Shown piece by piece: positions 9,544-25,913 of a stretch of 51,364 nt of DNA. The position numbers and the translations under genes are program-made. The first letter of the stretch is position 1. The number at the start of each line of letters is the position of its first letter. The notes beneath the pieces were generated by a model. The model did no database searches, was not told the DNA's origin, and saw only the letters and a list, made by a program, of their open reading frames with translations. Origin of the DNA: a virus. The stretch lies in the IMG/VR virus record IMGVR_UViG_3300037153_000387, positions 1-51,364 of that record, one strand, 5' to 3'.

Positions 9544-9628
9544 GTAGTCGTTGGGTCGGGGTTACGCGGAGGCCGCTTCCGCCGGGAGCGGCACTCGGGC
9601 AATCCAGCCCACAAGGAGAGTAGTTAGT

Positions 9629-11985: not shown

Positions 11986-12188
11986 ATGAGAAAGATATCT
12001 ACGCGAGGGCATACAAGGCGGCTCGTGCCGCCGGAATCGAAACTCACCGTGCGAATGCCATCGCCGGAAAGATCCAAGCGGAAATCCATCTCCTTGTCGT
12101 CGTTTCTCTCGAGGAGAAGATTAAGGAGGAGGTCAAGAAAAACATCCCGCCGACGTCGTCAGTCCTTCGCGTAACTACGGGAGAGTGA
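11982..12188 (+). CDS. Small helical protein
   Basis: 68 residues, two or three helices (DIYARAYKAARAAGIETHRA; EKIKEEVKKNI). ATGA overlap with the DUF3846 gene. Unknown function. Confidence 0.65.
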   Translation: MNEKDIYARAYKAARAAGIETHRANAIAGKIQAEIHLLVVVSLEEKIKEEVKKNIPPTSSVLRVTTGE

Positions 12189-12190
12189 AC

Positions 12191-12481
12191 ATGGAAAAGG
12201 TGTTCGAGCATCATTGGAGTCGACAGCTGACTCCTCGCAAAGACGGACAGCCTGACGACATCACGTGGGAGAATCTCGTCATCATGCTTCGGCAGGACGG
12301 ACCCTACATCGGATGGGCGTTCAGAGCGGGCTACGTCGGCACTCCGCAGGCCAACGCCACCTCCTACATGGCGGTGGCGTTGCATGGGGCACTCGAGCGA
12401 ATTCGAGAGCTTCAGGAGCAGTTGGCGTCGGCCAACGCCGCTTACGAGTCCCTCGCCAACAACGGTCTGGAGGAGGTGTAG
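12191..12481 (+). CDS. Hypothetical protein
   Basis: 96 residues from ATG 12191 (GGGAGAG about 6 bases upstream; GTG 12185 is an in-frame alternative). It has an aromatic N-terminal half (DDITWENLVIMLRQDGPYIG) and a C-terminal coiled-coil-like helix (ALERIRELQEQLASANAAYE). Unknown. Confidence 0.7.
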   Translation: MEKVFEHHWSRQLTPRKDGQPDDITWENLVIMLRQDGPYIGWAFRAGYVGTPQANATSYMAVALHGALERIRELQEQLASANAAYESLANNGLEEV

Positions 12482-12558
12482 TCGAAATCTGACCCCTAGG
12501 TCCGAACCTGTTTGAAGACGGCCAGGGAAAATAATCCGCCTAGTCGAGCGTTTTTCAC

Positions 12559-12587
12559 TTGCGTTCGACAGGGTGGAGCGTTATCAT
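12559..12587 (+). promoter_or_regulatory. Promoter of paralogue C gene
   Basis: TTTTTCACTTGC (12551-12562) with -35 TTGCGT (12559-12564), 17-base spacer, -10 TATCAT (12582-12587). Shares the extended upstream box with the promoters at 16664, 24756, 30310 and 34475. Confidence 0.78.
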
Positions 12588-12632
12588 TGTATTCGTTACG
12601 TGGCAAGCACGTCAGTTAAAGGAGAGAATGAA

Positions 12633-12989
12633 ATGGAGCTCAATCTTCGGAAGGTCGACAAGAACGGACTGGCAATCTACGAAATCCCGAATCTTCGTGG
12701 CAGCGTCTACATCACGAAGTCGATGTTGAAGGGCGAACCACCGGCAAAGCTCACGGTCGAGGGCGTCGAGTTCGCGGAGCCGGGGCTGAATGGATCGCGG
12801 GTCTCGATCGACCCCGAGAAGGTCCGCAAGGCCGAGGAAGCGGCAACGAAGGCTCAGGAGCGCGCGACGAAGGCCAAGGAGAAGGCCGAGGCGCTCGCGA
12901 AGCGGGCGTCGGAGATCGTCGGCGGTCAGACCCAGGGCACGGTTCCGGAGTCGGTCGGCGAGGTCAAGGAAGTTCACGCCACCGCGTGA
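12633..12989 (+). CDS. Paralogue C of the RG-[ST]-[VI]-Y family
   Basis: 118 residues from ATG 12633, AAAGGAGAG just upstream. KNGLAIYEI, NLRGSVYITKSMLKG and AKLTVEG align with paralogues A and B over about 35 residues; a Lys/Ala/Glu coiled-coil helix (EAATKAQERATKAKEKAEAL) follows. It too is a single-gene unit between its own promoter and terminator. The tail is shorter than in B. Function unknown. Confidence 0.8.
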   Translation: MELNLRKVDKNGLAIYEIPNLRGSVYITKSMLKGEPPAKLTVEGVEFAEPGLNGSRVSIDPEKVRKAEEAATKAQERATKAKEKAEALAKRASEIVGGQTQGTVPESVGEVKEVHATA

Positions 12990-13002
12990 ATGCTGAGGAA
13001 GA

Positions 13003-13029
13003 GGTCGGCGCAAGCCGACCTTTTTCTTT
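13003..13029 (+). terminator. Rho-independent terminator
   Basis: GGTCGGC, loop GCAA (GNRA), GCCGACC (13014-13020), TTTTTCTTT. Ends the paralogue C unit. Confidence 0.9.
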
Positions 13030-13060
13030 GCCGTGAGTTAACAACTCGGGAAAGGTTCCT

Positions 13061-13273
13061 ATGCAACGTCTTCACTTGAACATCACGGTTGAAGCTGTCG
13101 TGCCGCAATTCATGTTCAAATTGCTCACGCAAGATCCACCGGATCAACGCACCGTGAACGTCTTAGAGAGACTTTTCGCTGAGAAGCTAGTCTCTGCGAC
13201 GAGGCATTCAGGAATCGGTATCAGGATAAAGGATGTGACCATTAACGATGTTTCGCGACGGGAGATGCCTTGA
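13061..13273 (+). CDS. Small hypothetical protein
   Basis: 70 residues. The first strand LHLNITVEAVVP, a helix (RTVNVLERLFAEKLVSA) and a final strand (IGIRIKDVTIND) give a beta-alpha-beta shape. AAAGG lies about 8 bases before the ATG. Overlaps the next start. Unknown. Confidence 0.65.
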   Translation: MQRLHLNITVEAVVPQFMFKLLTQDPPDQRTVNVLERLFAEKLVSATRHSGIGIRIKDVTINDVSRREMP

Positions 13274-13506
13274 GCGCTGAGATCATTCCCATCACCCCAA
13301 TCACTCCTTACACTATTCAGTTTGCAACTGAAGAACCACAACCGTTGCCGCGGATTAGTCCAGCAACGGTGAGACAGGCTCGAATTGTGGCAGAGTTCCT
13401 TCTTGGAGAACTGCTGCCGATCGAACCGGGTGCCACGTTTCCAGACTTTCGTATCTTTGACGTGAATGACGAGGTAGTTTTTCATGGGTTGGGACGCTTA
13501 CTGTGA
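13270..13506 (+). CDS. Small hypothetical protein, TTG start
   Basis: 78 residues. TTG 13270 overlaps the upstream TGA and has GGAG at 13261-13264, 5 bases before; no other start fits. Pro-rich N-terminus (ITPITPYT), then a helix (SPATVRQARIVAEFLLGELL) and strands. Unknown function. Confidence 0.6.
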   Translation: MSAEIIPITPITPYTIQFATEEPQPLPRISPATVRQARIVAEFLLGELLPIEPGATFPDFRIFDVNDEVVFHGLGRLL

Positions 13507-13834
13507 TCCAATGGGATGCTCGCTTCTTGGCAACAAAGGCGAGTATCCCTATGCTCTCCGGGCCAAGAAGCTGCAAGCCGAGGGATATGTAGTCGATGGC
13601 CTCCTGAAATTTGGAGGCCTCGACTGCGATCTTTCTGGAACTATGCTTCAAAAAGCGACTGGGATGAATGTCTACGGCAATGCGTGGGATGCCGAGACGG
13701 TTGCTAAGCTCAACAAGAATGCCGACTGGGATTTCCCACTTGATCATCCTCGTGACGCGTGGGCGCGAGAATCTGCTCGCGCATTTCTCGAAGTCACGGC
13801 TACGCTAAAAAGAGGCATCCGCTTCTCTTGGTGA
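13484..13834 (+). CDS. Hypothetical protein
   Basis: 116 residues, Gly/Trp/Asp-rich (MGWDAYCDPMGCSLLGNKG; NVYGNAWDAETV). It overlaps the preceding gene by 23 bases and is followed by a hairpin. No family recognised. Confidence 0.68.
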   Translation: MGWDAYCDPMGCSLLGNKGEYPYALRAKKLQAEGYVVDGLLKFGGLDCDLSGTMLQKATGMNVYGNAWDAETVAKLNKNADWDFPLDHPRDAWARESARAFLEVTATLKRGIRFSW

Positions 13835-13844
13835 ACTTCGCGGT

Positions 13845-13864
13845 CCGCCCTTCAAGGAGGGCGG
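13845..13864 (+). terminator. GC hairpin upstream of helicase gene
   Basis: CCGCCCT, loop TCAAGG, AGGGCGG (13858-13864), followed by TCTGGG. No U tract; same style as the hairpin at 6206. Confidence 0.35.
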
Positions 13865-13903
13865 TCTGGGCAGTTCGCCCAATACAACGTGTGAGGTGTC
13901 AGA

Positions 13904-15358
13904 ATGGAATGGTCCAGTCAACAGAGGGCAATCTTCAATGCCTTCGCAGAGAACGGTAACACGCCCAGGAAGAACAAGGTCATCAGTGCCTTGGCCGGAA
14001 CGGGCAAGACGACAACCATCGTGGAAGGTGGGCGCTACGCTCCCGAAGAGCGAATCGTCTACTGCGCTTTCAACAAGCGCATTGAGCAGGAGCTCAATGT
14101 CCGACTCCCCGAGGTGAATCCGCGAGCTAAGTCTCAGACGCTTCACAGCGCGGGCTTCGGGTTTTGCCGAAAGGCGTGGACGGGTCTGACCATGAGCAAG
14201 GGCTATGATCGTTCTGACGATCTTGCCAACCAAGTCTGTCCGTCGACGACGCCCGACCCCATCCGCCGCTTGGTTCGTGATTTGAGCACCAAAGGTCGGG
14301 AGATCAATCCGTGGGCGCGCAACATGGGAGAGCTGACGGACTTGATGTATAAGTTCGATCTCCTGCCTGATGAGTCGTGGGTGGCGTCGGGATGGGACGA
14401 AGCGTTCATCGAGAAGAAGGCACTCGAAGCAATGGACCTCGCCGCTAAGGTGAAGCCCATCAAAACCGGCATCGACTTCTCCGACATGATCTATCTGCCA
14501 GTGCGGAACAACTGGTTGCATCACATGCACGATCTCGTCGTCGTCGACGAAGCGCAGGACATGAACATGGCGCAGTTGGCCATTGCTCAGGGCATGTGCG
14601 CGGGTCGGATGATCGTCGTCGGCGATCCCAACCAGGCCATCTACGCATTCCGTGGCGCCGACAGTGAATCGATCGATCGTCTGACGCGGGAACTCAATGC
14701 AGAGGTCCTTGGCCTGACCGTCACGTATCGCTGCGGCAAGCGGATCGTTGCGCTGGCGCAGGAAATCGTCCCACACTTCGAAGCGGATCCGGACAACTCC
14801 GAAGGTGAAATCCAGGAGATCGCGGCCGACAAGGTCGTGCTTGCCGCCGAAGGTGGGGACTTCATTCTGTCCCGTACGAATGCCCCGCTCGTCAGCTACG
14901 CCATGATGCTTCTGCGAAATCAGAAGCGAGCTCGGATCGCGGGCCGGGATCTTGGTAGCGGTCTGAAGTCGCTCATTCGGAAGTTCAACGCACGGTCCGT
15001 TCCGGAACTGATGAAGAAGATCACGGCGTGGGAAGAGCGTCAGGTGATTCGGTTCGCTCAGGCCGGGAAGGAAGACAAGATCGAGGAAACTCGCGACAAA
15101 GCCGAAACGCTGCGCGTGCTCCTCGAGGGAGCGAAGTCGGTCACGGAAGCGGAGAACACGATCGACGCGCTGTTTACCGATGACGGTCTCGGTCAGAAGA
15201 GCGTCATCACCTGCTCCTCGGTTCACAAGGCCAAGGGGTTGGAGGCGGATCGGGTTTTCGTGCTGAAGAGCACACTTCGGGACTACAACCAGGAGGAGAG
15301 GAACATTCAGTACGTCGCAATCACGCGGGCACGTAAGACGCTCGTCTGGATCGTGTAG
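13904..15358 (+). CDS. SF1 (UvrD/Rep-type) DNA helicase
   Basis: 484 residues. The Q-motif-like N-terminus SSQQRAIFNAF precedes Walker A AGTGKTTT (31-38). Motif II VVDEAQD (about 213-219), motif III GDPNQAIYAFRGA (about 243-255), TYRC, a VHKAKGLEADRVFVL block (motif V) and YVAITRARK (motif VI) follow in the right order. At 484 residues it is compact, without the large 1B/2B inserts of host UvrD, like phage Dda-type helicases. It unwinds duplex DNA 3'-5' or 5'-3' by ATP hydrolysis during replication or recombination; direction cannot be read from sequence. Confidence 0.93.
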   Translation: MEWSSQQRAIFNAFAENGNTPRKNKVISALAGTGKTTTIVEGGRYAPEERIVYCAFNKRIEQELNVRLPEVNPRAKSQTLHSAGFGFCRKAWTGLTMSKGYDRSDDLANQVCPSTTPDPIRRLVRDLSTKGREINPWARNMGELTDLMYKFDLLPDESWVASGWDEAFIEKKALEAMDLAAKVKPIKTGIDFSDMIYLPVRNNWLHHMHDLVVVDEAQDMNMAQLAIAQGMCAGRMIVVGDPNQAIYAFRGADSESIDRLTRELNAEVLGLTVTYRCGKRIVALAQEIVPHFEADPDNSEGEIQEIAADKVVLAAEGGDFILSRTNAPLVSYAMMLLRNQKRARIAGRDLGSGLKSLIRKFNARSVPELMKKITAWEERQVIRFAQAGKEDKIEETRDKAETLRVLLEGAKSVTEAENTIDALFTDDGLGQKSVITCSSVHKAKGLEADRVFVLKSTLRDYNQEERNIQYVAITRARKTLVWIV

Positions 15359-15366
15359 GAGGTCAG

Positions 15367-15573
15367 ATGAAAATGTTCGAGGTCTATGGGTGGGCCATGG
15401 TCCCCCAAGACTACGCGATGGTGATGGCTGACGATGAGAACGAAGCCATCAAGAAGTTCGCTGCGTTCCTCAAGAACAAACCAGAGGAAGCAGAAGTGTC
15501 AAAACCAGTGGCTGACTGGTTCGTGCTCCCCGCAGTCTTCGAAGACGATGTGCGTATCGTTCGAGGTGACTAG
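15367..15573 (+). CDS. Small hypothetical protein
   Basis: 68 residues. FEVYGWAMVPQDYAMVMADD forms a first strand pair, then a helix (ENEAIKKFAAFLKNK) and a final acidic strand. Nine bases after the helicase stop, with GGAGG before the ATG. It resembles small phage proteins with an 'A.d..eA...f' helix; unknown. Confidence 0.72.
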   Translation: MKMFEVYGWAMVPQDYAMVMADDENEAIKKFAAFLKNKPEEAEVSKPVADWFVLPAVFEDDVRIVRGD

Positions 15574-15752
15574 TGGATCTTTCTAACGTCAAAAGTCTCC
15601 TCCAGACTATCGTGGAGATTTCCTACAGTGGACATCCAGACGGGAGAGAAACCCGTCTGGAACTTATCAATCGTTATGCGAAAATCGCGCTGAAGGAGTT
15701 TCAGAATGAAGGACATGCCGGAAAGCGTGAAACTGACGATCGAAGCTCCTAA
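15573..15752 (+). CDS. Small helical protein
   Basis: 59 residues from GTG 15573, overlapping the previous TAG, with GAGGTG 5 bases upstream. Helical (VKSLLQTIVEISYSG; RLELINRYAKIALKEFQNEG). It overlaps the next gene by 47 bases in another frame. Unknown. Confidence 0.58.
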   Translation: MDLSNVKSLLQTIVEISYSGHPDGRETRLELINRYAKIALKEFQNEGHAGKRETDDRSS

Positions 15753-15936
15753 CTTCAAAATTACCTATTCGGGTTCGGAACTTCCGAATCCGAACAAGGA
15801 CGACAAAGCCTTCGTGAAGTGGTGTCGGAACAATCTCAGAGACGATTTCGTTCGGGCATTCATCTTTGCCGTGGCTGATGCCAATGCCAAGACGATGGCT
15901 GACGACGTCATCGATGGCTCTAAGGAGGGTGTGTGA
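15706..15936 (+). CDS. Small hypothetical protein
   Basis: 76 residues. Strands in the first third (VKLTIEAPNFKITYSG), then a helix with DDFVRAFIFAVADANAKTMA. A GAAGGAG stretch precedes ATG 15706. Its GTG-coupled successor is the DUF6166 gene. Confidence 0.68.
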   Translation: MKDMPESVKLTIEAPNFKITYSGSELPNPNKDDKAFVKWCRNNLRDDFVRAFIFAVADANAKTMADDVIDGSKEGV

Positions 15937-16250
15937 AGATTCAAGGAGAATTCACCGACGGCGATTACGGCCAAGTCTTTCTTGATGATGTGCCGCTTCC
16001 TCTTCGTCCCTCGCTGAAAGTCCGCCGCCATAGCCCCACCGGATTCGCGTGGGGCTATGAGGGTTCCGGACCGGCTCAGTTGGCACTCGCAATCTTGCTG
16101 GAGTCGGGCTGTGGAACAGCCACAGCCGAACTTCTCTATCAAGACTTCAAGCGGAAGTTTATCGCCCGATTCCCTCAAGGTGCGTTCGTGACTCACATTG
16201 ATGTGGATCAATGGGTCAAGGAAGAACTCGAGAGAAGAGGTTACGAATGA
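15933..16250 (+). CDS. DUF6166-like protein
   Basis: 105 residues from GTG 15933 (AAGGAGGG upstream). The block LPLRPSLKVRRHSPTGFAWG then EGSGPAQLALAILLE is the hallmark of the DUF6166 family, followed by LLYQDFKRKFIARFP and a W near the end. The family is common in phages and bacteria and has no established function. ATGA overlap with the next gene. Confidence 0.8.
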   Translation: MKIQGEFTDGDYGQVFLDDVPLPLRPSLKVRRHSPTGFAWGYEGSGPAQLALAILLESGCGTATAELLYQDFKRKFIARFPQGAFVTHIDVDQWVKEELERRGYE

Positions 16251-16489
16251 GAAATCAGCCGAAGAGCAAGATCCCCAAGATGCAGGTCAGCGCCTACGCT
16301 CACAAGAAGATCCGTGAGGCGGTGGAGCGCGACTCTATTCGGTGGCAGTGCTCCAAATCGTGGATCATTGCGACGGCACTCGCTGCGTTCTACGACATCG
16401 ACATCTTGGCCTTCGACAAGGCCGACAAGAAGAAGCATGGCAAGAATCAAAAGCAAGGATCAGCTTTCGCTTTTCGACGAACCGCCTAA
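16247..16489 (+). CDS. Ribbon-helix-helix-like DNA-binding protein
   Basis: 80 residues. KMQVSAYAHKKIREAVERDS, then RWQCSKSWIIATALAAF: a short strand, a helix, a turn, and a second helix with the S-x-S-W-I pattern of Arc/MetJ/CopG-type proteins. Basic C-terminal tail. Probably a small repressor acting as a dimer. It overlaps the next gene by 53 bases. Confidence 0.65.
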   Translation: MRNQPKSKIPKMQVSAYAHKKIREAVERDSIRWQCSKSWIIATALAAFYDIDILAFDKADKKKHGKNQKQGSAFAFRRTA

Positions 16490-16655
16490 GCCGAAGCGTG
16501 AGCTTCCGCAACTTCCATGGATTGACTGCCTGCGGGAACAAATCATCCGCGACAGCAAATCTTTACTCGACTGCGATGAATGTGATCGAACTTTTTTCGA
16601 AGAACGCATCTCATCTTACAGAATGGAGGTTTTGCGCCTAGAACAAAAATCCTAA
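16437..16655 (+). CDS. Small hypothetical protein
   Basis: 72 residues from ATG 16437 within the end of the RHH gene. It begins MARIKSKDQLSLFDEPPKPK, a basic then Pro-rich linker, then helix with CDECDRTFFEERI. The 'QLSLFDEP' piece resembles a clamp-binding or SLiM-like segment, which is speculation. Unknown function. Confidence 0.62.
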   Translation: MARIKSKDQLSLFDEPPKPKRELPQLPWIDCLREQIIRDSKSLLDCDECDRTFFEERISSYRMEVLRLEQKS

Positions 16656-16663
16656 TTTTTCCC

Positions 16664-16693
16664 TTGCGCTCGGGTTAACAACTGTGCTACACT
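16664..16693 (+). promoter_or_regulatory. Promoter before 16727 gene
   Basis: TTTTTCCCTTGC (16656-16667), -35 TTGCGC (16664-16669), 18-base spacer, -10 TACACT (16688-16693). Extended box as in the other family members. Confidence 0.78.
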
Positions 16694-16726
16694 GTACTCG
16701 GACTTACACAACAGGAGGACACAAAA

Positions 16727-16987
16727 GTGGAAACAGGAGAAGACAAAATCAAACAGCAAATCTTGAGTTATCTCAAGATGAGTGCCATTCTTGCCGACAC
16801 TATCCAGGAGATAAAGTCGGTACCATCTGGGCATCTTTATGCCATGGTGATGGGCAAGATGGACATCAACACTTACAACCACTTGATTGATACGCTTATC
16901 AAGGGTGGCGTCGTTCGTCGAGAACCGTCGCATCTACTTGTGTGGATCGGCGGGAGCAGCAAGGTTCTTCCTAGCATCGAGAGATAG
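16727..16987 (+). CDS. Winged-helix-like small protein
   Basis: 86 residues from GTG 16727 (AGGAGG 9-14 bases upstream). Helices ILSYLKMSAILADTIQE and INTYNHLIDTLIKGGVV, then RREPSHLLVWIG look like helix-turn-helix followed by a wing. Hence possibly a transcription regulator made from its own promoter. Family not recognised. Confidence 0.6.
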   Translation: METGEDKIKQQILSYLKMSAILADTIQEIKSVPSGHLYAMVMGKMDINTYNHLIDTLIKGGVVRREPSHLLVWIGGSSKVLPSIER

Positions 16988-17080
16988 AGCAGCACCGGGG
17001 CCAAACCGAAAGAATCCACCGCTGTCACGATAGGTGGTTACTCACATCTTAGGTTTGTATGACTGCCCGGTTGGGGCGGG

Positions 17081-17101
17081 GCGGAAGTCGTGACCTTCCG
17101 C
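17081..17101 (+). promoter_or_regulatory. Leader hairpin before 17125 gene
   Basis: GCGGAAG (17081-17087), loop TCGTGAC, CTTCCGC (17095-17101): a perfect 7-bp stem ending about 14 bases before the AAAGGAG of the 17125 gene. The 137-base gap 16988-17124 holds no other gene; a weaker CCACC/GGTGG pair lies near 17020-17040. Could be a leader structure. Confidence 0.4.
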
Positions 17102-17124
17102 TCCATTCCCCCGAAAGGAGACAC

Positions 17125-17325
17125 ATGGCGACGATTGGAGAGTTGACTGGAATGCGCCAGCCGCTCCCCTGTGACAGAAAGGAAGCCCATCGGTCGATGG
17201 GCAAGGCAAGAGCGGCACTACGCGCACGTCTGAAAGATGACACGAAGGTCCGGGAAGCGAAGACACTGAATGCCTATAAGTGTCCTCACTGTCCCTTTTT
17301 CCATGTAGGACACAAATCAAGATGA
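17125..17325 (+). CDS. Small Zn-binding protein, CPHCxxxHxGH
   Basis: 66 residues; AAAGGAG 5 bases before the ATG. The N-terminal half is basic and helical (SMGKARAALRARLKDD). The C-terminus YKCPHCPFFHVGHKSR has the CPxC...xHxGH zinc knuckle found in many small phage proteins. A nucleic-acid-binding role is likely but unproven. ATGA overlap with the next gene. Confidence 0.75.
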   Translation: MATIGELTGMRQPLPCDRKEAHRSMGKARAALRARLKDDTKVREAKTLNAYKCPHCPFFHVGHKSR

Positions 17326-17618
17326 TTGCTTTCACTCCAGCAGAAAAGGCCCATCTGAAAGAAAAACTCCAGAAGGGCTTCGACACCTACAAGCTCCCGA
17401 CTCATACGGAATCGAGTCTGGAAAGCTACATCCTTCAGGGAATCCCCACCGGGGGTTTCCTCCAGGCCGTTCTCAGCAACAATCTTCGTGAAGCTGTGTC
17501 GCGTGCCGATGATCAAAATCAGCGAGCACTCGTCAACATCGTGAAGTTCCTTTACAACCATGCCCCATCCGCGTGCTGGGGTAGCGAGGGCTACTACAGG
17601 GACTGGATTAAAAGATAG
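17322..17618 (+). CDS. Conserved phage protein, GIPTGGFLxAVLSN
   Basis: 98 residues. The block YILQGIPTGGFLQAVLSNNL, then EAVSRADDQNQ, then VKFLYNHAPSACWGS, is one I recognise from many small phage-encoded proteins of unknown function. All-helical. Its stop codon is within the left arm of the RNA structure that follows. Confidence 0.75.
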   Translation: MIAFTPAEKAHLKEKLQKGFDTYKLPTHTESSLESYILQGIPTGGFLQAVLSNNLREAVSRADDQNQRALVNIVKFLYNHAPSACWGSEGYYRDWIKR

Positions 17619-17784
17619 CTCCAACATCCTCTACTCTCAGAGGGGGCAAAACTGATTTCTGCCGGTCTTTTTCAGTTGTTGGAGCTACCACAAAAGACCG
17701 GCACTGAATTTAGAAATGAGTGGCAACGCAGCGCGGTAAGGAGAATCGCCCGAAGCTCTTCGGAGCTAAGTTATTCGATTCTCC
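17617..17784 (+). ncRNA. Candidate pseudoknotted structured RNA
   Basis: P1: AGCTCCAACA (17617-17626) with TGTTGGAGCT (17677-17686). P2: CCTCT/AGAGG (17628-17632, 17639-17643). P3: ACTGA/TCAGT (17651-17655, 17672-17676), directly abutting P1. The P3 loop carries GCCGGTCTTTT (17661-17671), complementary over 11 bases to AAAAGACCGGC (17692-17702), forming a pseudoknot or an alternative fold. P5: GGAGAATCG (17740-17748) with CGATTCTCC (17776-17784), enclosing an AGCTC-TTCG-GAGCT hairpin (17754-17767) with a UUCG tetraloop. The 290-base gap has no credible gene. Either a standalone RNA or a leader regulating the polymerase genes. Confidence 0.5.
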
Positions 17785-17908
17785 CTCGGGGCGTCGGGAA
17801 AAAGCGCAGACATCATCGTAGGCCGTCGACTACGAAGGATTGGCAATCTGATGTCGCCAGCGAAATGGATGAATCGCAAGACGCCTGCCACTCAGTTAAG
17901 GAGTTCTC

Positions 17909-18109
17909 ATGAGTCATCGAAAGAAACCCAAAGCTCGACCGAAGTGGTGTTACCACAAGTGTCAGAAATGTTTCCGGAGCTGGAAGCATCGTCCGGTCAT
18001 GAAGTGTGATCTGATGACCATGGCACTCTGTGGTGACTGCTTCATGGACAACAGGCGGGAAAATACGATCTACGTCGTCGATGATGTCCTTCCAGACGAT
18101 GCTATTTGA
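17909..18109 (+). CDS. Zn-binding basic small protein
   Basis: 66 residues, TAAGGAG 6 bases before ATG 17909. Basic N-terminus (SHRKKPKARPKW), CYHKCQKC (14-21) and CDLMTMALCGDC (about 33-44) give a four-to-six-Cys zinc site. First gene after the structured RNA; its end overlaps the polymerase start by 11 bases, so it is probably co-expressed with it. Unknown function. Confidence 0.72.
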   Translation: MSHRKKPKARPKWCYHKCQKCFRSWKHRPVMKCDLMTMALCGDCFMDNRRENTIYVVDDVLPDDAI

Positions 18110-19991
18110 TCTCAGGAAACGGATTCCTGAATTCACAGGAGAGTGGAAGCTGCCGGAGCTTCCCTCACTGAGCAATGTTAAGGAGCTTTATCTTAACGTC
18201 GAAGCTACAGGTCTCAAATGGTGGCGTCGCGATCAGCCGGTAGGTCTTAGTGTCATTTTCGGTGATCAAAACTATTATCTCCCCTTCGGTCATGCTGGCG
18301 GCAATCTCCCCGAGGAACAGGTAAAATACTGGGCACAGCGTGAGCTCCGCGGCAAGCGGATTACGAACATTAACATCAAGTTTGACATCCATATGCTCCG
18401 CCAGTGGGGCGTAGATCTTGAAGAGCAAGGATGTGAAGTCGCTGATGTTGCCCATCAAGCGGCGCTGCTTGACGATCATCGGCAACGTTTCGCGCTAGAC
18501 ATTTTAGTCCCAGAGTTCTTGAAGATAGCTCCCATGCCACGACTCGATGAGTCGCGTATGGCAGAACATCATGCTGGGCAAGTAGCGCCGCGTGCCATAT
18601 ATAATGTATGGGCGGTTCGGGAGCTCGAGAAAATCTTCCGTCCGGAAATGACGAAGCAGGATCTTGACCGAGTTCGTAAACTCGAAGAAGAGGTCATTTT
18701 CGTTGTTTGTGAGATGGAAAAGAACGCAGCAAAGATTGATGTTGAAAAGCTCAATCTGTGGTGTGTTCTCATTCAACAGAAGATCGAAGAACTCAAGTGG
18801 CGTATCTGGAAGAATACCGGACTCAAATTCAATCCGACGCCCCTGCATTGGGTCAAGCTCTTCCAACATGAACGTGTCAACAATACCGAACTGACTCCGG
18901 GCGGGAAGCCTAGTTTTCACGACAGCGTTCTCAAGAACATCCCAAATGAAAATATCCAGATTGCTCGTCGTATCGCTCGCCTAGCGAGTATCAATAGCAA
19001 ATATCTTCAGAAATACCAGCGGACCGTCGGCAGCGATGGCATCCTGCGATTCGCCCTGCATCAGCTTCGTACTCAAAAAGACGAATATGATTCAATGGAC
19101 GTCGGTACGATCTCTGGTCGATTCTCATCGACCGGGATTGACGACGAAGAAGGAGCGAATATTCAGCAGGTAATGAAAGTCGCTAAACAGAGAGTTTTAT
19201 TCGGATATGACGAGAACGATGGATCACACGATGATGAAATTTTCATCATCCGTGAACTTCATATTCCGGAAGAGGGAGAACACTTGTCGGCGGATGCGAT
19301 GCAAATCGAATATCGCATTTTCGCAGATAAGACGCGATCCGAAAAACTTCTAAAGAAGTATCAAGAAGATCCCAAGGCCAGCTTCCACCGCATGATTGAA
19401 GCTGACATCAAACCGCATCGACCGAAGTTCACCTATCGTCAGGTAAAAGACTTGAACTTTGCCACCATCTATGCCGCGGGTCTCTGTAAGAAGGCGTGGA
19501 TGTTGGAGTTCATTACGAAGACTCAGTTTGAAGAGTTGAATCGGGAATACAACAATCGTGTCCCGCGCTCTCATCCACTTTTAGCTGACGCCCTCGAGAT
19601 AGACAAAATCTACGCCCGTGAGCTTCCAGAAGCTGGGCCGCTAATCAAGTTGGCCAGCGACATCGCCGCTAAACGAGGGTATGTGCGAACCCTGCTGGGT
19701 CGCCGGATTCGTTTCCCTCAGAAGATTCGGTTGCATAAGGCTCTTAACGGAGTCATTCAAGGCTCCGCAGCCGACGTTGCGAAGAAGAAATCAGTAGAAC
19801 TTCATAAGGAACGGAAGTGGACGGGACTGCTTCTACGCTATCCGGTTCATGATGAGTTCGACGGTGATGCTCGAATTCCTGAAACGAAGGTTCGGGTTCA
19901 AGAAATTTTAGATACACAGTCGTTTCCACAGATGAAGATTCCTATACTTTGGGAAGTCAATACCGGAAAGACGTGGAAGGATTGCGCGTGA
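18099..19991 (+). CDS. Family-A DNA polymerase with defective exonuclease site
   Basis: 630 residues from ATG 18099 (ATG 18081 is an alternative). Motif A DAMQIEYR (about 398-406), motif B RQVKDLNFATIYAAG (about 447-461), the GxRIRFP loop, NGVIQGSAADV and motif C HDE (about 584-586) mark an intact family-A polymerase, the replicative enzyme of many phages. The N-terminal domain is the 3'-5' exonuclease, but Exo I reads LNVEATG (Asn33 in place of the catalytic Asp; Glu35 kept) and Exo III reads YNVWAV (Ala172 where Asp is expected). Exo II keeps NIKFD. Proofreading is therefore probably lost. No 5'-nuclease domain. Confidence 0.92.
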   Translation: MLFDLRKRIPEFTGEWKLPELPSLSNVKELYLNVEATGLKWWRRDQPVGLSVIFGDQNYYLPFGHAGGNLPEEQVKYWAQRELRGKRITNINIKFDIHMLRQWGVDLEEQGCEVADVAHQAALLDDHRQRFALDILVPEFLKIAPMPRLDESRMAEHHAGQVAPRAIYNVWAVRELEKIFRPEMTKQDLDRVRKLEEEVIFVVCEMEKNAAKIDVEKLNLWCVLIQQKIEELKWRIWKNTGLKFNPTPLHWVKLFQHERVNNTELTPGGKPSFHDSVLKNIPNENIQIARRIARLASINSKYLQKYQRTVGSDGILRFALHQLRTQKDEYDSMDVGTISGRFSSTGIDDEEGANIQQVMKVAKQRVLFGYDENDGSHDDEIFIIRELHIPEEGEHLSADAMQIEYRIFADKTRSEKLLKKYQEDPKASFHRMIEADIKPHRPKFTYRQVKDLNFATIYAAGLCKKAWMLEFITKTQFEELNREYNNRVPRSHPLLADALEIDKIYARELPEAGPLIKLASDIAAKRGYVRTLLGRRIRFPQKIRLHKALNGVIQGSAADVAKKKSVELHKERKWTGLLLRYPVHDEFDGDARIPETKVRVQEILDTQSFPQMKIPILWEVNTGKTWKDCA

Positions 19992-20407
19992 ACGAAGCAA
20001 CACTCAAACAAGCACTCTGTCAAGATTTACGGACTCTTACTAAGTCGGTCGTGCTCCGGCATGAAGATGTCTTCCGTGCTGGTAATCCAGACATCTCAGT
20101 TACGTGGAGTGGCCTGACGGTTTGGCTGGAAGTAAAATACGACACCAAGACTCGTCGTATGGAGAGTCGTGGCATCCAAAATCTGACATGTCGTCAGTTA
20201 GCACTCGCTGGATGGTGCTTCTATGTAATCTACGAAGACTTGGAGGAGAAGCAAACTCTCATCGTTGATCCAGAAAACTTTGAGAACGGTCGGATCGTAA
20301 ACAGAGACTTTAACAAATACTGGGGGCAGGGTATCGCCAAAGGATTTAGTCATAGCTCTGTGACAAATTTCATTAGGAATCTTGCTAATGGCCATCACCA
20401 CCGATAG
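19988..20407 (+). CDS. PD-(D/E)XK (VRR-NUC-like) nuclease
   Basis: 139 residues from GTG 19988, overlapping the polymerase TGA. FRAGNPDISV supplies PD and TVWLEVKYD supplies ExK; a later helix with QLALAGW gives the Gln of the fold. This is the compact VRR-NUC/Holliday-resolvase-like form. Probably resolves branched DNA in replication or recombination. Directly coupled to the polymerase. Confidence 0.82.
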   Translation: MNEATLKQALCQDLRTLTKSVVLRHEDVFRAGNPDISVTWSGLTVWLEVKYDTKTRRMESRGIQNLTCRQLALAGWCFYVIYEDLEEKQTLIVDPENFENGRIVNRDFNKYWGQGIAKGFSHSSVTNFIRNLANGHHHR

Positions 20408-20630
20408 AAACGAATACCTACCGTCTCATGTCACACAGCGAGTAAAACGCGCTGTACGACTGGAAGCTGCCAACCGAAGTATGTCGGCATCGGCACTCGT
20501 GTTTGAAATTCTCCAAGAACGGATGCGAGAGCTTGGCTACGAGGTGGATGCAAATGAATTCATGGATTCATCAGATTCACGAGACCACGCCGGTGCAGAT
20601 GAAAGGCCAAACCTGGTTCAAAAGGGATGA
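20388..20630 (+). CDS. Ribbon-helix-helix-like protein
   Basis: 80 residues. EYLPSHVTQRVKRAVRLEAA, then RSMSASALVFEILQERMREL match the RHH order (strand, helix A, SxSALV, helix B). The C-terminal 25 residues are hydrophilic. It overlaps both neighbours (by 20 and 77 bases). Likely a small DNA-binding regulator. Confidence 0.65.
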   Translation: MAITTDRNEYLPSHVTQRVKRAVRLEAANRSMSASALVFEILQERMRELGYEVDANEFMDSSDSRDHAGADERPNLVQKG

Positions 20631-21525
20631 CCTCTTTGCTCCACTAGGCGCGGGCGGGATCAATGGCGCGAAGCTTCGTCAGTGCATCTGGCTCGTGCAT
20701 CGGGCTTATGAAGCGAATATCCCCGGCTTGGTTTCAGGAGCTAGCGTCAAGAGTCCACAGTTGATGATGACGAGTGCCGTCGCGCATCACTTCGGCATGA
20801 AGAGTCATCATGTGATCGGTGCTACCAAAGAAAGCACGATGCGGAATCACGTGTCGGTCGACATCGCCGCGGAATACGGAGCGACCTTTACAATCCTGAA
20901 TATTGGGTTCAATCCCAATCTTCAGCGAGAAGTCACACGTCTCGTTAACTCAGACATCTCAGCCTATCAAGGCTGGCTCCATCTGGAATACGGAATCTCG
21001 CTTAACCATCTGTTTCATCCACCTGAAGACATTGAGAAGTTTCATTGGATCGGTGGACAACAAGCTCGCAACATCCCAGAAGAAGTGGAGACTCTCATTG
21101 TTCCTGCTGGCTCATGCAATTCTGCTACTTCTGTTCTTTATGGGATTGCGATGTATCCACCGCCCAATCTCAAAAAAGTGATTCTTATCGGCATCGGTCC
21201 ATCTAAGCTCCAATGGATGGAACGACGTCTTGATATTATCAGAGACATCTCTGGTGAAGATGTTGAGCATCCTGCATCCAAAGTTCGCAAGTGGAACTGG
21301 ATGTATTGTGATCTCCACGGCGCCGGGATCTACTCATACCAAGACGAAGCTGAATACTTTCTGGAAGACATCACGTTCCATCCGACCTACGAGGGGAAAT
21401 GTATGAACTACCTCATGGCTCGGATGCCGGAAGTCTTCAACCCCACGACTTGCTTCTGGATCATCGGCGGTCCTGTGGACAGGAACTACATGAAGGATCT
21501 CGCAACCCGTTCAGTGAGGGGATAA
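20554..21525 (+). CDS. PLP-dependent enzyme, tryptophan-synthase-beta fold
   Basis: 323 residues from ATG 20554, with GAGGTGG 7 bases upstream. WFKRDDLFAPLGAGGINGAK (21-40) is the signature of the fold-type II PLP group (ACC deaminase/D-cysteine desulfhydrase), with Lys40 the likely Schiff-base lysine. IVPAGSCNSATSVLYG (near 187-202) looks like the phosphate-binding loop and IIGGPVD closes the protein. PLP enzymes take part in known thymidine hypermodification pathways, where they alter the amino acid attached to the base. Its position upstream of the kinase/transferase cluster suggests such a job; the reaction itself is not predictable. Confidence 0.78.
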   Translation: MNSWIHQIHETTPVQMKGQTWFKRDDLFAPLGAGGINGAKLRQCIWLVHRAYEANIPGLVSGASVKSPQLMMTSAVAHHFGMKSHHVIGATKESTMRNHVSVDIAAEYGATFTILNIGFNPNLQREVTRLVNSDISAYQGWLHLEYGISLNHLFHPPEDIEKFHWIGGQQARNIPEEVETLIVPAGSCNSATSVLYGIAMYPPPNLKKVILIGIGPSKLQWMERRLDIIRDISGEDVEHPASKVRKWNWMYCDLHGAGIYSYQDEAEYFLEDITFHPTYEGKCMNYLMARMPEVFNPTTCFWIIGGPVDRNYMKDLATRSVRG

Positions 21526-21767
21526 TGATTGAAATTAGAATTAGTAAACGGATTTGGGGAGATAGTCCTGAATCTTTAGCTAGTATCCGTAATCACATTT
21601 TGAGCGGAAAACCATTTCTAGCTAAATGCCCAAATTGTGAAGAGGGACCAGTGCTAGGTCGTTGTACCTCAAGAGACGGCACTGAAGGACTATACTGTGT
21701 CGGTTGTGGAAAAGTTCATCCTCTTCCTGGAGATGAAATTCATCTTTTCAATGTTTTCTTTGACTAA
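21525..21767 (+). CDS. Small Zn-ribbon protein
   Basis: 80 residues from ATG 21525 (TAATG overlap). CPNCEEGPVLGRC (about 33-45) and YCVGCGKVHPLP (about 56-67) form two Cys knuckles, a zinc ribbon. It ends one base before the tRNA gene. Function unknown; could be a partner of the enzymes around it. Confidence 0.7.
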   Translation: MIEIRISKRIWGDSPESLASIRNHILSGKPFLAKCPNCEEGPVLGRCTSRDGTEGLYCVGCGKVHPLPGDEIHLFNVFFD

Positions 21768-21768
21768 A

Positions 21769-21844
21769 GTCCTTTTCGTCTAGAGGCCTAGGATATCGCC
21801 CTTTCACGGCGAAGACACGGGTTCGAATCCCGTAGAGGACACCA
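21769..21844 (+). tRNA. tRNA-Glu (anticodon TTC)
   Basis: 76 bases including an encoded CCA end. Acceptor GTCCTTT (21769-21775) pairs with AGAGGAC (21834-21840); the anticodon stem-loop TCGCC-CTTTCAC-GGCGA carries TTC; the T arm is CGGGTTCGAATCCCG. Sequence is close to the bacterial tRNA-Glu pattern. It starts one base after the upstream stop and is followed within 10 bases by the next gene, so it must be cut from a polycistronic transcript. Confidence 0.95.
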
Positions 21845-21854
21845 AGGAGGAAAA

Positions 21855-22595
21855 ATGAAAATCGCACTTGTCTGCGAGAAGTGGCGACTTCCTGTTATGC
21901 CGGGGAAAGCGGCGATTGTTCCAGGCGAAGACAAGCGAGTGCTTGGATACTACGAGTATATCAATGCGAAGTCGCACGAAGTGGGTCGAAATGCCTTCTG
22001 CATTGAGTTTCTACTTAATCGACTCCCGAAGGGACTCGCTGTGGTTGAGGCCTTCGGTGGCGTCGGCGTCTTCGCGACCATTGTGCAGAATGTCATCAAA
22101 CCCTCTTTTCATCTGATCATGGACCTCGATGACGACTGCTATCACCAACTTCAGAATGCTTTTAATCCAGATGAAGTTAACAACATCTTAGTCGAGCAAG
22201 CGGATGCTCGGCTAGTGATGACACAGGTCGCTGCGGACCTTTATCTGCTGGACTTTCCGTTTTTCACGATGGTTCAGTATTCCAAGTGGAAGGATGAATG
22301 GGACGCGATCGTCGCACATCAACCGAAGGCCATCGTCTGGATGGACGGTGCTTCCAAGTATCTCCATCTGCATACAGAACTCTATTCAAAGGTTTCAGAA
22401 TTCCCCATTTCCGACCACACCACGTATATTCAAGGAGTGCGTAAGTTCATCCTTGAACGTCACAACTATACCGTGACCGCGTGCGCGTTCTCCACTGGGT
22501 GTTACTACTTCCTCGCTGAGCCTGGCTGGCATCAAGAACCTCCGGTAATCGTTCAAGAAAAGAGACAGGGAGGTCTGAAATGGATAGCTCAGTAG
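21855..22595 (+). CDS. Rossmann-fold, methyltransferase-like protein
   Basis: 246 residues, AAGGAGG before the ATG. VVEAFGGVGVFATIV (about 63-77) resembles the SAM-binding motif I; MDLDDDCYHQL gives the acidic end of beta-2, QADARLV the motif III region, and DLYLLDFPFFT the motif IV position. No clear DPPY or PC catalytic motif, so it is not an ordinary base methyltransferase. In the modification cluster it could act on the modified thymidine or its precursor. Assignment to the SAM-dependent Rossmann group is moderate. Confidence 0.6.
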   Translation: MKIALVCEKWRLPVMPGKAAIVPGEDKRVLGYYEYINAKSHEVGRNAFCIEFLLNRLPKGLAVVEAFGGVGVFATIVQNVIKPSFHLIMDLDDDCYHQLQNAFNPDEVNNILVEQADARLVMTQVAADLYLLDFPFFTMVQYSKWKDEWDAIVAHQPKAIVWMDGASKYLHLHTELYSKVSEFPISDHTTYIQGVRKFILERHNYTVTACAFSTGCYYFLAEPGWHQEPPVIVQEKRQGGLKWIAQ

Positions 22596-23707
22596 GCCGT
22601 TGGTCCGACATCAATGAAGTAGATGAAATTTCCGATCTGGAAACGGGCATGGACTTTCGAAAGCCCGAATACCGTCGGGAAGTGTTTCTGCGCTTCTATC
22701 AGTTCCACACGAAATACAAGGCTCATCCGGGTGGCGTGTATTATCTCATCCCAGCACTATCCGAGGTCTTTGAGTGGGACATAGAAGAACAATTATGGTG
22801 GGCGTTCTTGAATGGCAATACTCAGAACCCGATCATATCCACGATCATCATGCAGAGCTTTCCGTATCTCGCGGAAACCGATCCAGTGGAGCTCCAAAAC
22901 TATTTGGATACCAACTGGCATCGTCTTCATTTTGATACGGACCGGCGCTACTGGAAGAAGGAGCTCGCAAACTGTGTCGCGAACTATCAGCGTCAGCTGA
23001 ATGGTGAGACACAGCGGAGTTTCTTTGAGAAGTATTGTCAGGCTCAAAGTAAAGCCTCAAACTTCATGATGATGTGGGACAAGGTGCGAAATGACTTCTA
23101 TGGTTTTGGTCGCTTATCCACATGGTCCTACTTGGAATATCTATTTATTCTTGGATTGCCGATCGATCCAGGAACTCTGTTCCTCGAGGACCGGGACGGT
23201 TCAAAATCACTTCGAAATGGTCTCTGTAAAGTACTCGGCAGGGACGATTTGGATTGGCACGATTCTAACCCGACCTTTAACGGAAAATACGCTCCTGAGC
23301 TTATTCACTGGCTAGATGGTGAAGCCAATCTACTTCTGTGGGAAGCTAAGGAGCGGATGCCCAACGAACCGTCCATCAGCCACTTTACCCTCGAAAGCAC
23401 GTTCTGCTCTTACAAGAGTTGGTTTCGTCCAAATCGTCGTTATCCTAACGTCTATAACGACATGATGAACGAACGCATCAAGAAAGCTGAAGCTGACTGG
23501 AAAGATGACGCGGGTTTAGATCTCGATCTCTTCTGGCAACTCCGGAAGGCTTTCTTGCCGAAAAACCTGCGGCTGGAAGACAATCCCAATGATCTCGGCA
23601 TTCACCCCACCAAGCAGAATCACTTCCGTCTGACTGGCCAGGTGATCATGATGGAACGTGATTGGAGTTGTTTCGCTAACGATTACTCAAAGAGGTTAGT
23701 GGAATGA
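22580..23707 (+). CDS. Amino-acid:DNA-transferase-like protein (thymidine hypermodification)
   Basis: 375 residues, GGGAGG 6 bases upstream. Largely helical. The string LPALSEVFEWDIEEQLWWA is not continuous here; what is seen is YLIPALSEVFEWDIEEQLWW, then NPIISTIIMQSFP, DTDRRYWKKELANCVANYQ, YGFGRLSTWSYLEYLFILG and FLEDRDGSKSLRNGL. This order agrees with the aGPT-Pplase/amino-acid:DNA-transferase group, which replaces the phosphate of 5-phosphomethyl-dU in DNA with an amino acid. The recognition is from memory of the family's L.DR.GS..LRNG region. The context (kinases, TS homologue) supports it. Confidence 0.58.
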   Translation: MDSSVGRWSDINEVDEISDLETGMDFRKPEYRREVFLRFYQFHTKYKAHPGGVYYLIPALSEVFEWDIEEQLWWAFLNGNTQNPIISTIIMQSFPYLAETDPVELQNYLDTNWHRLHFDTDRRYWKKELANCVANYQRQLNGETQRSFFEKYCQAQSKASNFMMMWDKVRNDFYGFGRLSTWSYLEYLFILGLPIDPGTLFLEDRDGSKSLRNGLCKVLGRDDLDWHDSNPTFNGKYAPELIHWLDGEANLLLWEAKERMPNEPSISHFTLESTFCSYKSWFRPNRRYPNVYNDMMNERIKKAEADWKDDAGLDLDLFWQLRKAFLPKNLRLEDNPNDLGIHPTKQNHFRLTGQVIMMERDWSCFANDYSKRLVE

Positions 23708-24291
23708 TCACGACGTTCACATTGAAAAGAGTCGATCCATTGAATGTGCGGGTTGAAGACATCGATATTGAAGACATTGCACATTCACTGTCTCTAATCA
23801 ATCGATTCGCGGGACACTCGTCGATTCCTATTTCCGTTGCCCAGCACTCGTGCTACGTGGCGTGGCTCTGCGAAGGACAAGAGCCTTACATTCAGCTACA
23901 GGCACTTCTGCACGATGCCGCGGAAGCCTATCTCGGGGACGTCACCAAATGGCTGAAACACTCGCCAGAATTCGATAACTTCCGTCTCCTCGAGGATGAC
24001 GTCCAGCGCGTCATCTTCACATGGGCTGGCTGTCCTCTAGAGTTGCATCCGTCGGTCGAAACAGCCGACAAGCTGATGGTCAAGTTTGAGGCTAAGAAAG
24101 CCTATGGTCCGAACTATATCATCGATCGTCCTGGCTACGGAGAAATTTCTGATGAAGAATACCACTGGATTCAGTCTCAGACTCTGTGGCCGTGGACCGT
24201 GTGGAACTGGAGAAGGACAGAAGAGCGATTTCTAAACCTCCACAAAGCTCTGCTAGGTCGCTGCGCGGCGCAAGGGTCGGGCATTGCGTAA
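23704..24291 (+). CDS. HD-domain phosphohydrolase
   Basis: 195 residues, ATGA overlap. IEDIAHSLSLINRFAGHSSI, then SVAQHSCYVAWL and ALLHDAAEAYLGDVTKWLK: the H...HD...D order of HD-domain 5'-nucleotidases (YfbR-like). Such phage enzymes hydrolyse dNMPs. Here it could remove dTMP or shape the pool so that hmdUMP is used for DNA synthesis; inference from context. Confidence 0.82.
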   Translation: MITTFTLKRVDPLNVRVEDIDIEDIAHSLSLINRFAGHSSIPISVAQHSCYVAWLCEGQEPYIQLQALLHDAAEAYLGDVTKWLKHSPEFDNFRLLEDDVQRVIFTWAGCPLELHPSVETADKLMVKFEAKKAYGPNYIIDRPGYGEISDEEYHWIQSQTLWPWTVWNWRRTEERFLNLHKALLGRCAAQGSGIA

Positions 24292-24307
24292 AAGGCAATC
24301 CTAGGCC

Positions 24308-24392
24308 CCTCACAGCCCCGTGAGCACGCTTTGGGGCTGCCGCCAAAGGCAATGCAAGGGGCGGTTTGCGCGGCGTTCTCACGGCCTGTGAG
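24308..24392. repeat. Intergenic CTCAC/GTGAG hairpins
   Basis: CCTCACAGCCCCGTGAGC (24308-24325) is identical to 34317-34334. CTCAC/GTGAG pairing competes with AGCCCC (24314-24319)/GGGGCT (24333-24338). A second CTCAC-GGCCT-GTGAG hairpin is at 24378-24392. The 126-base gap 24292-24417 has no gene. Confidence 0.6.
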
Positions 24393-24417
24393 CGGTTTCA
24401 CAAACAGGAGAATACGC

Positions 24418-24603
24418 ATGAGATCTGATAAATTACTAAGAAATCTTCCAGATAAAAAAGTCTTAATAGATTGTCTCTACGCAAGATGCGACTGCACACA
24501 GCATTCTGCTTATGGTAGAATTTGTGAAGAGGTATATCTACATATGGTTGATTGGTGTACTCCTTGTTTGATGAAAGCTGCAATAGATCTTTTAAGACAG
24601 TGA
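24418..24603 (+). CDS. Small Cys-rich protein
   Basis: 61 residues from ATG 24418 (CAGGAG 7 bases upstream). CLYARCDC (about 18-25) and WCTPC (about 47-51) suggest one zinc site on a helical protein. AT-richer than its neighbours. Function unknown. Confidence 0.68.
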   Translation: MRSDKLLRNLPDKKVLIDCLYARCDCTQHSAYGRICEEVYLHMVDWCTPCLMKAAIDLLRQ

Positions 24604-24615
24604 AAGAGGCTGGTT

Positions 24616-24738
24616 ATGATGATATGGCTTTTCTGCTGTAATCTATGGAATTTATGTCATGAGTTCCTGCGACGTGAACGATTTGACGTGACGCGATACA
24701 TGTCTCGCGAGTGGATTGCGGAGCAGAAGAAAAAGTAA
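24616..24738 (+). CDS. Small Cys/basic protein
   Basis: 40 residues from ATG 24616, with AGAGG about 7 bases upstream. Hydrophobic, Cys- and Trp-containing N-terminus (MMIWLFCCNLWNLCHEF), then a charged helix (RRERFDVTRYMSREWIAEQK). Could be membrane-associated. The last gene before the promoter at 24756. Confidence 0.55.
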   Translation: MMIWLFCCNLWNLCHEFLRRERFDVTRYMSREWIAEQKKK

Positions 24739-24755
24739 ACCTCAGCGTTTTTCAC

Positions 24756-24784
24756 TTGCCTTTTGTTAACTCATAGTATAGTGT
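24756..24784 (+). promoter_or_regulatory. Promoter of the kinase operon
   Basis: TTTTTCACTTGC (24748-24759) with -35 TTGCCT (24756-24761). The -10 is TATAGT (24777-24782, spacer 15) or TAGTGT (24779-24784, spacer 17). The start codon at 24802 is about 12-13 bases after the expected +1 and there is no Shine-Dalgarno, so the mRNA has a very short leader. Confidence 0.7.
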
Positions 24785-24801
24785 ATAGGTGACTGCCGCC
24801 T

Positions 24802-25362
24802 ATGATTATCAACGTTCGAGGGACGTCAGGGTCCGGCAAGAGCTTCTTGGTTCGACGTATTATGGACCAATATGAGGCCATTGTCCCTTACTTCACAGAT
24901 GGCCGAAGGAAGCCTCTCTACTACGTTTGCTCCACAAATCTCAAAAAGCCGGTAATTTCAATTGGGCATTATGAGACACCCTGTGGAGGTTGCGACACCC
25001 TCAAGACAGTCGATCAAGTATATGACATCGTTCGTGAATCAGCTCGGTCAGGTTTTCATGTCATATACGAAGGCATCATGGTCAGCGGCGAGTCTCGTCG
25101 CTGCATTCAGCTTCACAAAGACAGTCTTCCGATTCATGTGATAGCACTCGATGTGCCGCTTGAGCAGTGTCTGGAATCAGTCAGATCCCGACGCGAAGCT
25201 CGTGGTGCTAAGAGTGAATTCAATCCTGAACGTACTCAGCGTCGTGCTCGTGAAGTTCGTAGCATGATGGAACACCTCAAAATTGCTGGGGTTAAAACCG
25301 AGTGGCTTCCACGAGATGAAGCTCTGGTCCGTTGCATTGAACTTTTTAACGAGGCGATATGA
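24802..25362 (+). CDS. P-loop kinase 1, putative 5-hmdU DNA kinase
   Basis: 186 residues. NVRGTSGSGKS (4-14) is Walker A; GHYETPCGGCDT (55-66), HVIYEGIMVSG (about 93-103) and an R-rich lid follow. The GHYE...CGGCDT stretch is shared with the next gene and is, as I recall it, typical of 5-hmdU DNA kinases, which phosphorylate hydroxymethyl-dU within DNA as the first hypermodification step. The known enzymes carry an extra helical domain, absent here but apparently encoded at 25901. First gene after the promoter, with almost no leader. ATGA-coupled to its paralogue. Confidence 0.68.
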   Translation: MIINVRGTSGSGKSFLVRRIMDQYEAIVPYFTDGRRKPLYYVCSTNLKKPVISIGHYETPCGGCDTLKTVDQVYDIVRESARSGFHVIYEGIMVSGESRRCIQLHKDSLPIHVIALDVPLEQCLESVRSRREARGAKSEFNPERTQRRAREVRSMMEHLKIAGVKTEWLPRDEALVRCIELFNEAI

Positions 25363-25913
25363 TCGTAAACATTCGAGGCACACATGGTTCAGGAAAAAGT
25401 ACACTTGTCAGGAAAATTCTTGATAGTTCATCTGAGTGGGATCGAGTTTATGTTTTCGACCGGAAACGCCCCTTTGGATATCTTCATAACGAAGGTAAAC
25501 TTTGGGTCCTCGGACATTACGAACTCGAGGGCGGTTGTGGAGGATGCGATACGATTCCCATCGTCGACGACATGTTCGATTCTATCAAAGCTCAGTCAGC
25601 CGTCGGTCTAAACGTGCTCTACGAGGGCATTCTCGCACAGCACGGCGTTCCTCGAGTGATTGAGCTTCACAAGCTCTATCCAACCACCGTTATCATTCTC
25701 ACCACACCTGAGCAAGAGTGCATCGATGCGGTTAATGCTCGTCGTGCTCAGAAAGGCAAAGGTCCTCTCGACCCACCGGATAGCATCACGGGAGAATTTC
25801 GATCGGTGCTTTCTGCTGGCAAGAAACTGCTCGCAGCAGGTGTCGATGTTCGCTACCATTCTCGAGAAGAAGCCCTCCGAGTAACTAAGGAGCTTCTGAA
25901 GTGGAACTATTAG
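25359..25913 (+). CDS. P-loop kinase 2, putative 5-hmdU DNA kinase
   Basis: 184 residues. NIRGTHGSGKST (4-15), GHYELEGGCGGCDT (52-65) and NVLYEGILAQHG align with kinase 1 over the full length, so the pair arose by tandem duplication. Divergent lid (RRAQKGKGPLDPPDS). Two copies may act on different substrates (hmdU in DNA and hmdUMP, or two modified positions) or form a heterodimer. Both keep Walker A Lys and the CGGCDT block. Confidence 0.68.
   Translation: MIVNIRGTHGSGKSTLVRKILDSSSEWDRVYVFDRKRPFGYLHNEGKLWVLGHYELEGGCGGCDTIPIVDDMFDSIKAQSAVGLNVLYEGILAQHGVPRVIELHKLYPTTVIILTTPEQECIDAVNARRAQKGKGPLDPPDSITGEFRSVLSAGKKLLAAGVDVRYHSREEALRVTKELLKWNY

Follow-up and report, generated by a model that had tools for sequence, protein, structure and literature searches.

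The window analysed here is the whole 51,364-nt stretch of the viral record IMGVR_UViG_3300037153_000387. In its polymerase region, a gene for a 98-aa protein is followed by an intercistronic gap, a gene for a 66-aa Cys-rich protein and the gene for a family A DNA polymerase (polA), all of them listed in Table 1. The neighbouring genes all lie on the + strand. A first-pass annotation had placed a structured RNA before "the DNA polymerase genes". The location is right, but there is a single polymerase gene, and the 66-aa gene stands in between. The reading frame at 20554–21525, considered as a second polymerase gene, was rejected: its kin are phage proteins, and the annotation of one of these reads putative PLP-dependent lyase. 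It lies in an apparent thymidine hypermodification cassette that extends over 20554–29000. Two small Cys-rich, zinc-knuckle-like proteins, encoded at 17125–17325 and 17909–18109, flank the 98-aa gene; the 66-aa protein, whose N-terminus is basic, is a candidate RNA-binding partner.

The gap between the 98-aa and 66-aa genes is non-coding. Its codon score is negative in six of six frames, and the frame that stays open across it scores −0.146 bits per codon, whereas true coding pieces have their median at +0.152 and their 1st percentile at −0.122. Since gaps of 150–570 nt in the simple gene model exist elsewhere in the window, some of them hiding missed small genes, a gap of this length is unremarkable by itself. 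The GC content is 0.52, and no promoter- or terminator-like site was found on the + strand at the element. By eye, a hairpin-rich gap at 9430–9560 with promoter-like TTGACA and TTGCAT/TAGACT was noticed upstream of the gene at 9629.

Table 1 Genes and predicted RNA helices in and around the intercistronic gap, with the genes of the apparent hypermodification cassette
Feature	Coordinates	Strand	Remarks
98-aa gene (upstream)	17322–17618	+	ATG 17322, UAG 17616–17618; coding score within true-gene range
P1, 5′ strand	17616–17626	+	pairs with 17677–17687; 11 bp, all Watson-Crick (inverted-repeat search)
Intercistronic gap with element	17619–17908	+	290 nt; non-coding codon score; gap in gene model
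P2 hairpin	17629–17642	+	CUCU-6 nt-AGAG; pair probability 0.7–0.76 in full fold
P3, 5′ strand	17651–17655	+	pairs with 17672–17676; 5 bp; weak, probability ~0.15
PK (pseudoknot helix), 5′ strand	17660–17671	+	pairs with 17692–17703; 12 bp, perfect
P3, 3′ strand	17672–17676	+	abuts P1 3′ strand
P1, 3′ strand	17677–17687	+	partner of 17616–17626
PK, 3′ strand	17692–17703	+	partner of 17660–17671
P4, 5′ strand	17717–17725	+	long-range helix closing the 3′ domain; pairs with 17886–17894, probability mostly 1.0
P5	17740–17784	+	9 bp, 17740–17748/17776–17784 (probability 0.95–1.0), over cUUCGg hairpin 17754–17767
P6	17790–17885	+	17790–17795/17880–17885; probability ~0.6–0.93 for P6/P7 region
P7 and hairpin	17809–17815/17849–17855; hairpin 17816–17835	+	enclosed by P6
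P4, 3′ strand	17886–17894	+	ends 3 nt upstream of AAGGAG ribosome-binding site
66-aa gene	17909–18109	+	Cys-rich (zinc-knuckle-like) ORF; SD AAGGAG just upstream
DNA polymerase A	18081–19991	+	PF00476, E 1.2e-26; likely start overlaps 66-aa gene
PLP-type enzyme	20554–21525		apparent hypermodification cassette
Amino acid:DNA transferase	22580–23707		PF18724; apparent hypermodification cassette
dNMP phosphatase-like	23704–24291		apparent hypermodification cassette
Thymidylate synthase-like	26931–27947		apparent hypermodification cassette

Helices and their interleaving

The 5′ half of the element (17616–17703, + strand) has the order UAGCUCCAACA-[P2]-ACUGA-UUUC-UGCCGGUCUUUU-UCAGU-UGUUGGAGCUA-CCAC-AAAAGACCGGCA (RNA letters, 5′ to 3′), and within these 88 nt P1 and PK are interleaved. 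P1 had been noted to begin in the stop codon of the preceding gene; its first pair in fact involves the U of that UAG. The helices of the first-pass annotation are genuinely present in the sequence, among them the 5-bp P3 abutting P1, which is predicted at a probability of just 0.15, and the 9-bp helix over a UUCG-capped hairpin. Two of them proved longer than described in an inverted-repeat search: P1 has 11 instead of 10 bp, and the complement between the P3 loop and the downstream sequence has 12 instead of 11 bp. The proposed extent, 17617–17784, ends too early, as predicted pairing continues to about 17894. In the predicted full fold P4, P5 and P6 are well-defined helices of this 3′ domain; the search for inverted repeats also returned 17714–17725/17886–17897 (12 nt, 92%). 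The hairpin in P5 is the single cUUCGg hairpin with a stem of at least 4 bp on the + strand of the window.

The primary complementarity is beyond chance. The interleaved perfect helices P1 and PK have a summed length of 23, whereas the maximum in 1,478 dinucleotide-preserving shuffles over the whole 51 kb window was 22, which occurred in two of them. Likewise, 373 kb of unrelated real loci contained no interleaved pair in which both helices have at least 10 bp. The earlier judgement that such an arrangement is unlikely to arise by chance is therefore upheld for the P1/PK interleaving. There are many weak look-alikes once G-U pairs and unequal helix lengths are permitted, so the claim depends on the two long perfect helices; a first descriptor scan with G-U pairs was too permissive for use.

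Folding energy had been suggested as a further check, and we dropped it as support after a genome-wide window survey. Compared with shuffled sequences, the minimum free energy (MFE) has a z of −2.32 for 168 nt and −3.18 for 306 nt, i.e. the element lies below nearly all shuffles. It is nevertheless ordinary for its own genome: in the survey of 290-nt windows z had a mean of −1.6 and a standard deviation of 1.6, the element scored −2.4, and many other stretches were more extreme. Energy thus does not mark the element as a special RNA. The strongest value of the survey (−8.0) belongs to 15616–15905, which is coding and contains a 10-bp hairpin at 15635–15661. Since both strands fold about equally well (minus strand z −3.68 vs −3.18 for the + strand), the strand was deduced from the direction of the operon and the cUUCGg cap, which is oriented that way on the + strand only. 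On the minus strand at 17605–17689, P1 lengthens to 13 bp, one of them G-U, and UUUU comes next, an arrangement reminiscent of a terminator with a large loop.

A nested model of the growing transcript predicts that P1 forms before PK. P1 has a probability of 1.00 in transcripts ending at 17687–17696 and of 0.97–1.00 at 17700; when the transcript reaches 17703, P1 falls to 0.01–0.09 and PK climbs to 0.91–0.99. In the full nested fold most of PK stands at ~1.0 and P1 at 0, because nested algorithms cannot hold P1 and PK together. The helices had been called mutually compatible. For P1 and PK this is true only in a genuine pseudoknot; otherwise they are alternatives. The geometry would be that of an H-type pseudoknot with connecting segments of 33, 5 and 4 nt, P2 lying within the 33-nt segment. 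According to a rough estimate, in which the pseudoknot penalty is a typical value and the loop geometry is itself estimated, P1, P2 and P3 (−21.8) together with an 8-bp PK core (−14.5) minus the penalty give an energy similar to that of the best nested fold (−28.1). Of the original description as a pseudoknotted structured RNA, the non-coding, non-random interleaved complementarity upstream of polA stands, and the pseudoknot itself stays a prediction. As a whole, the reading as a pseudoknotted regulatory RNA is plausible but unproven.

Search for relatives

At the gathering score, Rfam 15 reported a tRNA alone in the whole window (21769–21841), in agreement with ARAGORN (tRNA-Glu, 21769–21844). 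When the region was searched at a permissive E value, chance-level snoRNA matches and a 17-bit fragment of archaeal RNase P (cut-off 84) appeared. Group I introns, RNase P, tmRNA and known riboswitches were excluded on the basis of Rfam and ARAGORN.

No homologue of the element was found at the DNA level in INPHARED phages or plasmids. Viral collections were scanned with protein anchors (polA, the PLP-type enzyme, the 66-aa gene, the 98-aa gene, a helicase and the open frame of the gap). These scans yielded a few diverged relatives, none of which carries the element apart from one contig, IMGVR_UViG_3300036857_000177, where it is 100% identical. This contig evidently represents the same virus population, and because it is identical it provides no covariation information. 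Its identity to the window is 100% across the 13,959 bases compared (window 12030–25988). By its coordinates it reaches ~13.6 kb beyond the left edge of the window, so the phage genome is probably larger than the window. Bacterial genomes scanned with polA gave no relative. Scans for exact 17-mers in viral and bacterial collections led, on blastn, to short chance-like matches only, and covariance-model searches of the viral loci with 17-mer patterns revealed nothing convincing. Single-sequence covariance models (R1 and R2) run on 16 records were significant only for the window and the identical contig; the best weak match, at 2789–2847 of record L003, falls within a 488-aa reading frame.

The nearest polymerase relatives share 39% and 24% identity with the polymerase, and annotated phages ~25%. 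In these relatives a comparable gap before polA is absent, coding sequence running up to the gene. Homologues of the 98-aa protein are present in records L013–L015 and in two distinct annotated phages, where other reading frames follow in place of the element. No homologue of the 66-aa protein was found. Taken over Rfam and the phage, plasmid, viral and bacterial genome collections searched, the element appears to be an orphan, lineage-specific candidate.

Possible functions and comparison with known systems

Tentatively, we favour the reading that the element is a lineage-specific, cis-acting structured mRNA leader between the 98-aa gene and the 66-aa/DNA polymerase A cistrons. The 5′ half would then act as a two-state element. 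P1 would form first behind RNA polymerase, in keeping with the computed folding order, and once 17692–17703 emerges, PK would either lock P1 into an H-type pseudoknot or displace it. A ribosome terminating at the UAG would cover the 5′ strand of P1, so that a translated upstream gene would tip the switch towards the P1-off state. One of the states could be fixed by a bound protein, for which the polymerase and the 66-aa protein, basic and Cys-rich, are candidates. The 3′ domain (17717–17894), which closes directly before the SD, would relay the state to translation of the 66-aa gene, and polA output would follow that gene through the overlapping start.

This proposal draws on the interleaved helices of 11 and 12 bp, the non-coding gap, the computed folding order from P1 to PK and the roughly estimated, near-equal pseudoknot energy, as well as on the cUUCGg orientation, an operon on the + strand with neither a promoter-like nor a terminator-like site there, and precedents in T4. 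Against it stand the missing homologue and hence missing covariation, polymerase relatives that lack a comparable gap, an ordinary fold stability, a minus strand that folds at least as well, and the weak P3. Moreover, the pseudoknot would lie ~200 nt before the start codon, farther than in known phage translational operators.

Other readings of the locus have to be considered. The two compact domains span the gap, and with the cUUCGg cap and a length that suits a phage ncRNA they could constitute a standalone or processed RNA of ~280 nt (17616–17894) that is cut from the operon mRNA and acts in trans. We consider this unlikely, as the + strand has no promoter- or terminator-like site, P1 overlaps the preceding stop codon, and neither a homologue nor, in Rfam, a known ncRNA family was found. 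Far less probable still is a barrier to 5′-to-3′ exonucleases, i.e. an mRNA stabiliser with an xrRNA-like P1/P2/P3 junction that shields the polymerase mRNA after upstream decay. The order of P1, the P2 hairpin, the P3 hairpin, P1′ and the partner of the P3 loop is that of the xrRNAs of mosquito-borne flaviviruses; bacterial RNase J1 is stopped in vitro by one such xrRNA (PMC5760640). The likeness is in topology only: when the three-way junction was tested, the complementary segments occurred in the right order, but P3 is weakly predicted, P1 and PK are much longer than in xrRNAs, and there is no Rfam match. In addition, xrRNAs reside in a 3′ UTR whereas the element here lies in a phage mRNA, and the host may lack RNase J.

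The main helices consist of Watson-Crick pairs throughout, and the two strands fold equally well, as would be expected of an inverted repeat in DNA. The interleaved repeats might thus bind proteins or belong to a replication origin; however, the region has no direct repeats of at least 9 bases and is not AT-rich, and the cUUCGg cap favours RNA, which makes a DNA element quite unlikely. A hidden coding function, either a structure that stimulates readthrough of the stop codon or a decayed gene in the gap, must be weighed because past its UAG the 98-aa gene has 97 further open codons in frame (17619–17909), closed by a TGA that overlaps the next ATG (ATGA); the chance of such an open frame is 0.028. 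Yet three other genes in the window have still longer open frames after their stops, the codon score falls under the 1st percentile of coding pieces, the open frame has no protein homologue, and 98-aa homologues terminate near the same place. Known readthrough pseudoknots leave a spacer of ~8 nt after the stop codon, whereas here P1 starts with the stop codon. Readthrough, while possible, is therefore disfavoured, and a coding extension, with its non-coding codon usage, is likewise improbable. Finally, the gap may be a non-functional spacer whose helices are coincidental or a relic of something else. The lack of conservation and the ordinary MFE z agree with this, but interleaved helices of 11 and 12 bp were reached neither in the shuffles nor in the 373 kb of control loci, and we deem a mere spacer rather unlikely.

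If the element is a cis-acting leader, the closest precedents are found in T4. The mRNA of T4 gene 32 has a pseudoknot in its leader that serves as a translational operator, overlaps segG, comprises ~28 nt and adjoins a less structured UUAAA/UAAA tract and the SD (PMC535899, PMC3014915). With gene 32 of T4 and RB69 the element shares the association with a phage replication gene, a leader pseudoknot (here predicted) and the overlap with the end of the preceding reading frame. It differs in size (88 nt, with helices of 11 and 12 bp) and in position, as the pseudoknot would lie ~200 nt before the next start. None of the hallmarks of a T4-type gene 32 operator, namely an adjoining SD, UUAAA/UAAA repeats and an SSB gene, is found here: the intervening sequence is structured and devoid of such a tract, and the downstream genes are the 66-aa Cys-rich ORF and polA. 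The DNA polymerase of T4 (gene 43) autoregulates through an RNA hairpin of 18 bases located ~40 bases upstream, without a pseudoknot (PMC3014915). In both phages a structured RNA, in our case a predicted one, would precede a DNA polymerase gene; the T4 enzyme, however, belongs to another family, and here, with family A, the 66-aa gene intervenes.

For now the element counts as an orphan candidate, strong in its primary complementarity; a new class is not established. It would be a bold step, and one that we regard as improbable, to propose a new class of phage regulatory RNA in which a translation-coupled, co-transcriptionally reshuffled pseudoknot, its first strand placed in the upstream stop codon, sets the output of a polymerase operon, with the zinc-knuckle protein as a possible ligand. 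If the case of this family A polymerase, in a phage that apparently hypermodifies thymidine, proved true, such control would not be peculiar to T4-like phages.
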